A stretch of 64,000 bases of DNA from Virgibacillus phasianinus (GTDB lineage: Bacteria > Bacillota > Bacilli > Bacillales > Amphibacillaceae): the NCBI RefSeq assembly GCF_002216775.1, contig NZ_CP022315.1, forward strand, positions 1,054,001 to 1,118,000, read 5' to 3'. This document shows, piece after piece, positions 48,523 to 57,566 of this stretch (its first letter is position 1; each line of letters starts with the position of its first letter). The notes beneath the pieces are model-generated. The model saw nothing but the letters and a program-made list of their open reading frames with translations. It did not search any database and was not told where the DNA came from. The position numbers and the translations under genes are program-made.

Positions 48523-48598
48523 TGGTGGAGCCTAGCGGGATCGAACCGCTGACCTCCTGCGTGCAAGGCAGGCGCTCTCCCAGCTGAGCTAAGGCCCC
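48523..48598 (-). tRNA. tRNA-Ala(TGC)
   Basis: 76 bases with encoded CCA. The cloverleaf has anticodon TGC in CTTGCAC and the G-U pair typical of alanine acceptor stems. Last of the nine tRNAs, directly before the downstream 16S leader. Confidence 0.97.
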
Positions 48599-48616
48599 AT
48601 AAAATATAGTTTTAAA

Positions 48617-48693
48617 TGGTCGGGAAGACAGGATTCGAACCTGCGACCCCATGGTCCCAAACCATGTGCTCTACCAAGCTGAGCTACTTCCCG
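48617..48693 (-). tRNA. tRNA-Pro(TGG)
   Basis: 77 bases with encoded CCA. Anticodon TGG in TTTGGGA, and acceptor stem CGGGAAG/CTTCCCG. Confidence 0.97.
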
Positions 48694-48696
48694 AAA

Positions 48697-48773
48697 TGGC
48701 GCGCCCGAGAGGAGTCGAACCCCTAACCTCTTGATCCGTAGTCAAACGCTCTATCCAATTGAGCTACGGGCGC
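48697..48773 (-). tRNA. tRNA-Arg(ACG)
   Basis: 77 bases with encoded CCA. Anticodon ACG in CTACGGA, and acceptor stem GCGCCCG/CGGGCGC. The A34 would be read as inosine after TadA deamination. Confidence 0.97.
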
Positions 48774-48776
48774 ATA

Positions 48777-48865
48777 TGGTGCCGAGGGCCGGACTCGAAC
48801 CGGCACGATAGTTACCTATCGCAGGATTTTAAGTCCTGTGCGTCTGCCAATTCCGCCACCCCGGC
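48777..48865 (-). tRNA. tRNA-Leu(TAA)
   Basis: 89 bases with a long variable arm and encoded CCA. Anticodon TAA in CTTAAAA. Confidence 0.97.
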
Positions 48866-48873
48866 ATGGGAAT

Positions 48874-48948
48874 TGGAGCGGAAGACGGGATTCGAACCCG
48901 CGACCCCCACCTTGGCAAGGTGATGTTCTACCACTGAACTACTTCCGC
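48874..48948 (-). tRNA. tRNA-Gly(GCC)
   Basis: 75 bases with encoded CCA. Anticodon GCC in TTGCCAA, and acceptor stem GCGGAAG/CTTCCGC. Confidence 0.97.
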
Positions 48949-48967
48949 GTTGTTATTAGATGAATGA

Positions 48968-49049
48968 TGCGGGTGAAGGGACTTGAACCCCCACGTCAAA
49001 AGACACTAGATCCTAAGTCTAGCGCGTCTGCCAATTCCGCCACACCCGC
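48968..49049 (-). tRNA. tRNA-Leu(TAG), CCA end not encoded
   Basis: 82 bases with a long variable arm and anticodon TAG in CTTAGGA. After the acceptor stem CACCCGC and discriminator A, the genome reads TCA rather than CCA, so the CCA end must be added by nucleotidyltransferase. The other eight tRNAs in the cluster encode CCA. Confidence 0.95.
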
Positions 49050-49059
49050 ATAGCATAAA

Positions 49060-49135
49060 TGGTGAGCCATGAAGGATTCGAACCTTCGACCCTCTGATTA
49101 AAAGTCAGATGCTCTACCAACTGAGCTAATGGCTC
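49060..49135 (-). tRNA. tRNA-Lys(TTT)
   Basis: 76 bases with encoded CCA. Anticodon TTT in CTTTTAA, and acceptor stem GAGCCAT/ATGGCTC. Confidence 0.97.
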
Positions 49136-49158
49136 GTACTATTTAACAATGATGTCAA

Positions 49159-49234
<76 letters not shown>

Positions 49235-49248
49235 TAATTATGTGAAAA

Positions 49249-49324
49249 TGGTGGAGGATGCAGGGCTCGAACCTGCGACCCCCTGCTTGTAAGGCAGGTG
49301 CTCTCCCAGCTGAGCTAATCCTCC
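49249..49324 (-). tRNA. tRNA-Val(TAC)
   Basis: 76 bases with encoded CCA. Anticodon TAC in CTTACAA. First of the nine tRNAs, only about 15 bases after the upstream 5S gene and with no terminator between them. Confidence 0.97.
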
Positions 49325-54785: not shown

Positions 54786-56285
<1,500 letters not shown>

Positions 56286-56342
56286 TTAGCTATGTCCATG
56301 CCAATCGTTTATCGTTCATTATATAAGAAATAGGATATTATT

Positions 56343-56492
56343 TCATGCATTTACATTATTATAACATGCAGCTCGTTTACGCATTTCAAGAAGTGCGACT
56401 TTTACAACCTTGTGCTTAATCAGTCGATCCATGTGAAGCATACATGCATCTATTTTTTCTTTGGGGCTGGGAGCGTGATACACCTTCTGAAA
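56343..56492 (-). pseudogene. dusB: Remnant of dusB (tRNA-dihydrouridine synthase), C-terminal fragment
   Basis: Directly after the yazB stop, a 49-codon frame without a start reads through the blocks YHAPSPKEKIDACMLHMDRL, IKHK..KVALLEMRK and RAACY, then TGA. These align, as I recall, with the C-terminal part of DusB: P-T-P-x-EKI, the LHM-RLI helix and EMRKHAAWY. The gene order yazB-dusB-lysS of B. subtilis predicts dusB exactly here. All of the catalytic barrel and the last ~30 residues are missing, and the histidine and tryptophan of the EMRKH-W motif are changed. Two TATAAT sequences (56363-56358, with an extended TG, and 56323-56318) in and after it may now serve lysS. Confidence 0.7.
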
Positions 56493-56494
56493 GA

Positions 56495-56722
56495 TTACTT
56501 TACTCCCTGGATATGTTCGTCTTTGCCGATTAATTCTTCTTTTGATACAGACAGGGTGAGTGCAACTTTATCCAGAAGCACATCAGGTGCCTCCTTCATT
56601 CCCCGTTCCACATCACGAAGTTCTGTAATCGACACATGCAAAACCTTAGCAAAATCTATTTGTGTATATCCTTTTAATTTACGAAATGCTTTTACTCGCC
56701 TGCCGATTCTTGCGGTGTCCAT
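56495..56722 (-). CDS. Xre-family HTH protein (YazB-like)
   Basis: A 75-residue helix-turn-helix protein (IGRRVKAFRKLKGYTQIDFA, then KVLHVSITELRDVERG). It overlaps the end of folK by 31 bases, as yazB does in the B. subtilis folate operon. Its target genes are unknown to me. Confidence 0.88.
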   Translation of the reverse strand: MDTARIGRRVKAFRKLKGYTQIDFAKVLHVSITELRDVERGMKEAPDVLLDKVALTLSVSKEELIGKDEHIQGVK

Positions 56723-57204
56723 TTTCTAACATCCTTTACATCTTGGTCCGTCAAATCATCCACATAATCCGACACACATTTACCCTGAGCACCAATAGGT
56801 AACTCTGGGTTTAATTCTTTTAAGGGTATAAGTACAAATGCTCGTTCATACAACCGTGGATGCGGCACATTTAATCGTTCTGTTTTTATATTTTCATCAT
56901 TATAGATTAAAATGTCAAGGTCTATTGTACGGGGGCCGAATCTGATTGCACGTTTTCGTCCCAGTCCCTCCTCAATTCGCTGGCATCTCTCCAATAAAGC
57001 GAAAGGAGTAAGTGGCGTTTCAATTTGGATAGCCATGTTTAGAAAATCAGCCTGGTCTGTATAACCTACCGGCGCCGTCTCATAAATAGACGATTCACTC
57101 TTAATCGTAATATGTTCATTTGTTCGCAGTTCATGTAATGCCTTTTGTAAATGGGTGTATCTCGGTTCAATATTAGTTCCGAGTGCTAGGAAAACATTAT
57201 TCAT
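56692..57204 (-). CDS. folK: 6-hydroxymethyl-7,8-dihydropterin pyrophosphokinase
   Basis: HPPK activates the pterin for coupling to PABA. The 170-residue product has FLALGTNIEPRYTHLQKALH, SSIYETAPVGYTDQADFLN and the signature GRKRAIRFGPRTIDLDILIY. Its ATG overlaps the folB stop by one base. Confidence 0.97.
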   Translation of the reverse strand: MNNVFLALGTNIEPRYTHLQKALHELRTNEHITIKSESSIYETAPVGYTDQADFLNMAIQIETPLTPFALLERCQRIEEGLGRKRAIRFGPRTIDLDILIYNDENIKTERLNVPHPRLYERAFVLIPLKELNPELPIGAQGKCVSDYVDDLTDQDVKDVRKWTPQESAGE

Positions 57205-57566
57205 TATTTTTTCTCCCTAAAAATTTCTACAGCTACCGATTCGTAATGACCGCGAATTGGCGGGTCTGGTTTCACAACCTTCACAAGGATAGCTTGTAAT
57301 AAATCAAAATTGGATAAGAGACTCTTAGCGATATCTTCTGCCACAGCCTCAATCAGGTTTTTTGGATCACCTTCGACAACTGTTTGTATAAGTTCATAAG
57401 CGTGTCCATAATGAATGGAATCTTCCATCCTGTCACTTTCTCCCGGCTGCTTTAGATCCACCAGTAATTCTACATCAACATGAAATCGTTGCCCCAATTT
57501 GTTTTCTTCTGGAAGTAGTCCATGATATCCATAAAACCGCAAACCTTTAAGTATAATTTTGTCCAT
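57204..57566 (-). CDS. folB: Dihydroneopterin aldolase
   Basis: The 120-residue enzyme splits dihydroneopterin to give the folK substrate. Motifs: LKGLRFYGYHGLLPEENKLG with the catalytic glutamate, and the C-terminal VKPDPPIRGHYESVAVEIFR with the conserved proline/lysine. Tightly packed between folP and folK. Confidence 0.97.
   Translation of the reverse strand: MDKIILKGLRFYGYHGLLPEENKLGQRFHVDVELLVDLKQPGESDRMEDSIHYGHAYELIQTVVEGDPKNLIEAVAEDIAKSLLSNFDLLQAILVKVVKPDPPIRGHYESVAVEIFREKK

Follow-up and report, generated by a model that had tools for sequence, protein, structure and literature searches.

In the window (the whole stretch of 64,000 nucleotides that was analysed), a short degraded frame lies on the minus strand between two intact genes. 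Its upstream neighbour is a helix-turn-helix gene (56495..56722, minus strand; HTH_3, E 1.8e-8), which is also found in the sister genome G001 and which we take to be yazB. Its downstream neighbour is lysS (54786..56276, minus strand; TIGR00499, 742.5 bits), with a start at 56276, and upstream folK (56692..57204, minus strand; TIGR01498, 155.2 bits) backs the synteny. The minus-strand frame immediately past the yazB stop reads APSPKEKIDACMLHMDRLIKHKVVKVALLEMRKRAACYNNVNA and terminates at the stop at 56343-56345. When positions 55900-57300 were compared with Rfam, one sub-threshold match to a plasmodium snoRNA was returned and nothing else. Downstream of lysS, a cluster of nine tRNA genes occupies window positions 48526-49324, between two rRNA operons.

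A dusB1 relic between yazB and lysS

Within the open frame (56343..56492, minus strand), the 43 residues encoded from 56483 to 56355 (feature 56355..56483, minus strand) align with positions 248-290 of the 329 of DusB1, so that roughly codons 248-290 remain, covering the linker and the start of the C-terminal helical domain. The DusB model TIGR00737 was the sole family match of the frame in NCBIfam, at 17.8 bits with an E value of 0.0015 and aligned over profile positions 247-286 of 319, and a Pfam search gave no match at E values up to 10. From intact DusB1 proteins of family relatives, 30 in all, we made a profile that scored 50.9 bits on the window spacer, and the relic shows a top identity of 76%, over 37 residues, to these 30 proteins. 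With the same profile, no reverse strand among 122 loci and none of 2440 dinucleotide shuffles scored 5 bits or more. Against this stand the brevity of the match, 43 residues, and its low score of 17.8 bits when the public TIGR00737 model alone is used. The initial annotation had described a C-terminal fossil of dusB at this place, and the dusB1 relic is confirmed as real.

Like B. subtilis DusB1 (BSU00810), the relic belongs to this sequence family, and it stands before lysS as in intact relatives; unlike it, the relic has only 43 of ~329 residues and lacks the start, the catalytic barrel and the C-terminal end (the last ~38 codons). Ahead of codon 248, nothing in the window spacer matched DusB1 at 5 bits or above. 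The C-terminal helical domain is itself incomplete, being represented by positions 248-290 of 329 with the second half absent. Not all that was first said of this frame holds to the letter. It had been described as having no start codon, and there is an in-frame GTG at 56483, but no ATG ahead of the conserved stretch and no convincing start. It had also been explained by a large internal deletion; the barrel is indeed gone, but the loss is not internal, as it extends from the start codon to ~247 and takes the end of the gene as well. The intact DusB1 proteins of the profile contain NMGCP, which we assume to be the active-site motif of the Dus TIM barrel, and the relic is without the barrel that carries this motif. 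Judged by its 17.8 bits against the curated, whole-protein cut-off of the equivalog model TIGR00737 (293.3 bits), the relic is not a working member of DusB1.

The dusB1 locus in relatives

Forward frames from yazB to lysS were searched in 122 loci, a non-random choice made up of the window, the sister and 120 fetched loci (102 from genomes without DusB1, 2 with broken copies and 16 with intact ones). Not fetched were 7 of the 111 DusB1-less genomes, in which lysS is missing, partial or broken (G051, G063, G082, G106, G113, G125 and G138). A recognisable yazB is missing from the ~2 kb upstream of lysS in 28 of the 122 loci, four intact-dusB1 loci among them, and for these 28 the 1200 bp ahead of lysS were searched instead.

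Intact dusB1 precedes lysS in 16 of the 122 loci, with a recognisable yazB upstream in 12 of the 16, and the relic shares its place and strand with these intact genes, in agreement with the earlier statement that synteny puts dusB here. We take dusB1 to be yacF in B. subtilis, where dusB1 presumably also lies before lysS. Sister species had been named as a check on the fossil, and the loci of relatives, apart from the intact ones, show differing stages of decay. Two hold near-full-length, frame-broken copies (L057 of G131 and L130 of G075, with frameshifts in both and stops also in one), 30 hold relics, for which a score of at least 8 bits was required, 3 are marginal at 5-8 bits and were left out of the relic count, and 71 gave nothing at 5 bits. 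The sister retains dusB1 codons 1-40 directly past yazB (59.9 bits), so the two species hold complementary remains.

Four relics (L154, L148, L088 and L149) retain the two ends of the gene and have lost the barrel. The lysS-proximal C-terminal part is kept in 25 of the 30 relics and the yazB-proximal N-terminal half in 9 of the 30, in loci that are related; selective retention of the C-terminal end is one possible reading. Stops or frameshifts occur in the C-terminal remains of L078, L148, L154, L085 and L127; the matched C-terminal stretch is free of stops in L152, L070 and L110. The moment of deletion is visible in neither the window species nor the sister. In L154, from G050, codons 1-43 run on, in frame, into codons 258-327, as a single clean deletion of the barrel would leave them, and a later stop lies in the C-terminal part. 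In L130 (G075:C28:54972-58441), dusB1 carries a frameshift at about codon 270, and its genome has no DusB2; the frameshift would be either an error or a sign of another double-loss candidate. A DusB1 match holding four internal stops, apparently a recent pseudogene, was seen in a different family of the order (G183:C2:54612-55358).

On a lysS tree, dusB1 changed state at least 16 times, or 40 times under losses only with midpoint rooting. As a quick single-gene tree inflates the latter figure, we argue for repeated loss from the mixed states in seven genera, each of which contains intact as well as lost dusB1. That one of two redundant tRNA-modifying enzymes can be lost is already known; what this locus contributes is a set of physical remains, and their gradation between fixed neighbours (near-full-length but broken, two-ended, one-ended, bare spacer) makes repeated gene loss traceable at one place.

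Between the relic and lysS lies a non-coding block of 52 bp (56303..56354, minus strand), 85% identical to that of sister G001. It holds a promoter-like ATGAAA-N17-TATAAT at 56346-56318, common to the window and the sister with 10 of 12 consensus matches in each, which is possibly the lysS promoter. Taken alone, the promoter scan is at chance level, with 2 promoter-like sites found against 1.7 expected. Promoter-like pairs that agree with the consensus at 11 or more of 12 positions occur within 220 bp upstream of lysS in 35 of the 122 loci, which are related and not independent, against 0.6% of shuffles. From such motifs, lysS may have a promoter of its own, likely placed in the spacer across the family. 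Only 3 of the 16 intact-dusB1 loci reach 10 of 12 matches, and the strongest sites among them (L160 and L170) lie 109-112 bp ahead of lysS. Together with the 10 of 12 matches in the window and sister, this indicates that a promoter alone is insufficient to account for the bias towards C-terminal retention.

DusB1 and DusB2 across the family

Of 146 family genomes, 35 have a DusB1 above the TIGR00737 cut-off, two of these being broken copies; in an order-wide draw, with at least 7 members of the window strain's family among its 199 genomes, the number is 144. DusB2 (at least 74% identity) is present in 136 of the 146. The ten genomes without it are G007, G043, G044, G052, G075, G079, G092, G099, G118 and G100, its absence from G079 and G118 being based on a best E-value of ~1e-15, the level of DusB1 cross-matches. 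DusB1 was found in nine of the ten, with a frameshifted copy in G075; the exception is G100. Absence of DusB2 is thus associated with presence of DusB1 (Fisher p 9e-6 for 146 genomes; p 1e-4 on 137 tree rows with G075 taken as broken). The lysS tree excludes G089 and G105, both with DusB1 over the cut-off, and 15 other DusB1-bearing rows have a partial lysS. On this tree, DusB1 was opposite in ~6 and the same in 0 of 8 independent pairs differing in DusB2 (median p 0.03). In the reverse test, with 11 pairs differing in DusB1, DusB2 was opposite in ~5, the same in 0 and unchanged in 6 (median p 0.06); DusB1 can therefore be lost while DusB2, in most cases present in any event, stays as it is. 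Second, partial DusB2 matches were seen at G049:C1:3127583-3128287 and G074:C14:3943-4179.

According to PMC11162810, B. subtilis DusB1 (BSU00810) makes dihydrouridine at tRNA positions 17, 20, 20a and 47, and DusB2 at positions 20 and 20a, overlapping with DusB1 at a high enzyme level; D17 and D47 are assigned to DusB1, and single as well as double dus mutants grow more slowly at 23 C. The same paper states that Gram-positive genomes mostly contain one of dusB1 and dusB2 and ~40% both, with dusB2 only in Staphylococcus and dusB1 only in Mollicutes (PMC11162810). The family studied here resembles this either/or retention in that one paralogue is lost and the other kept, and departs from it in offering physical remains of many losses within one family and one genome apparently without both.

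That genome, G100 (3.6 Mb, 99% complete, ~150 contigs), appears to have lost dusB1 as well as dusB2. At its dusB1 locus the gap between yazB and lysS is just 91 bp, and at its dusB2 locus rlmD and the next gene of the relative G135 lie on one N-free stretch from which dusB2 is absent. Searched with the DusB1 and DusB2 profiles, these empty, contiguous loci (L203, G100:C16:32111-36487; L157, G100:C39:29811-33280) contained no remnant, and a DNA search of G100 with the dusB2 of G135 gave chance matches only. The best whole-genome match to Pfam Dus, a 307-aa frame at 43.5 bits, is near the score of the window genome's dihydroorotate dehydrogenase (40.3 bits). Among 149 genomes at least 95% complete, G100 alone is without a TIGR00737 match at 1e-15.

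Judging from its genome size, G100 is probably free-living. We lean towards the view that the family's dusB1/dusB2 pair decays reciprocally and that the decay would be complete in at least one full-sized species, G100, a bacillus without a known tRNA dihydrouridine synthase. A passage of PMC4014445 implies that Dus is absent from some Mollicutes, other than laidlawii, so Dus-less bacteria are not new in themselves; those Mollicutes are likewise bacteria without a Dus gene, but they are small-genome parasites, in contrast to the 3.6 Mb of G100. In G100, a bacterium whose genome is full-sized, the need for tRNA dihydrouridine could be examined without mutant construction. In the open-licence literature, we found no paper linking dusB, lysS and pseudogene, or Lentibacillus with dihydrouridine; the excerpts of PMC3674756 mention gene loss twice, both times for eukaryotes.

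The dusB2 gene of the window strain and the loss of dusB1

The genome of the window strain is a single contig of 4.07 Mb, in which no intact dusB1 was found elsewhere. A second Dus paralogue had been suggested as the reason why dusB1 became dispensable, and the genome-wide count supports this: there is one other recognisable Dus, DusB2 (C1:516485-515527), split into two frames in the assembly (locus L008:4495-5486 of G000:C1). Its two parts are 86% and 83% identical to the DusB2 of the sister, with a one-base length change at a G run around C1 position 516,245, the lesion being a single base lost within this short run. The search for Dus genes turned up no intact frame in this assembly. Another candidate, L002, which scores 40.3 bits with Pfam Dus, was rejected as a dihydroorotate dehydrogenase; the other Dus-like hits in the genome are weak and partial.

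To the sister's frames, 224 kb of the window strain's genome were compared, with mechanically listed, uncurated frames of at least 100 aa as queries. Three of the 186 matched queries are split by a frameshift (an ABC transporter, a TatD-family and a lectin-like gene); two of five split queries lie inside a large-subunit rRNA gene and were left uncounted. The ABC transporter and lectin-like genes have lost one base within a G run, as has dusB2, and in the TatD-family gene the lost base is beside the run, not within it, which makes a true dusB2 lesion slightly less improbable. In the reverse comparison, of the sister against the window strain, 1 of 193 queries is split. Since the splits of three other genes also fall at G runs or next to them, we read the split of dusB2 as a probable sequencing or assembly error of the homopolymer type, and not as proving that the strain is without dihydrouridine.

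We hold with high confidence that the relic is an eroded pseudogene of dusB1, the gene for tRNA dihydrouridine synthase B1, in an ancestral folK-yazB-dusB1-lysS order, and that its barrel was deleted in a loss made tolerable by DusB2. A deletion would have taken the start and the FMN-binding catalytic barrel and left part of the lysS-proximal end, which would have decayed afterwards; this sequence of deletion and erosion is suggested by the range of decay stages among relatives. The loss would be tolerable because DusB2 acts on most of the tRNA positions that DusB1 modifies, and, with DusB2 as the one other recognisable Dus in the genome, the second paralogue is the likely reason why dusB1 was dispensable. 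As dusB2 is frame-split in the assembly, that DusB2 works and compensates in the window strain is something we infer. By analogy with B. subtilis, D17 and D47 would be reduced or missing in this strain. The relic is an ordinary pseudogene in a known pattern of dusB1/dusB2 loss.

Other explanations of the relic fare poorly. It is very improbable that it encodes a small functional protein, a lone part of the tRNA-binding helical domain of Dus: the bias towards C-terminal parts in the 30 relics and the three stop-free stretches would fit such a protein, but stops and frameshifts interrupt the C-terminal remains of five relatives, the sister has no C-terminal part and the window lacks the second half of the domain, and on the evidence of the relatives and the sister we reject it. 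Chance resemblance in an unrelated spacer is less probable still, practically nil; the brevity of the match and its weakness with the public model are outweighed by the score with the family profile and by the position and strand shared with intact dusB1, and the shuffle and reverse-strand controls rule chance out.

A more serious alternative, although an unlikely one, is that working Dus enzymes are entirely missing from the window strain, with dusB1 a relic, the frameshift in dusB2 true and the tRNAs without dihydrouridine. The assembly offers no intact Dus frame, G100 suggests that both genes can be lost, and runs of 5-6 G or C are not depleted overall in the assembly, so a general homopolymer fault lacks demonstration. 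The lesion itself is of the kind that recurs in two of the three other split genes, however, and one-base gaps in G/C runs, at 4 deletions to 1 insertion against the sister, lean the same way in numbers too few for significance. Moreover, dusB2 compared with the sister's gene has a dN/dS of 0.08 ahead of the lesion and 0.19 past it, with no further stop. A real frameshift would make this strain a second case without Dus.

Between the sisters (L008 and L023), the synonymous divergence of dusB2 is ~0.5, below that of folK (0.86), lysS (2.1) and yazB (2.2).
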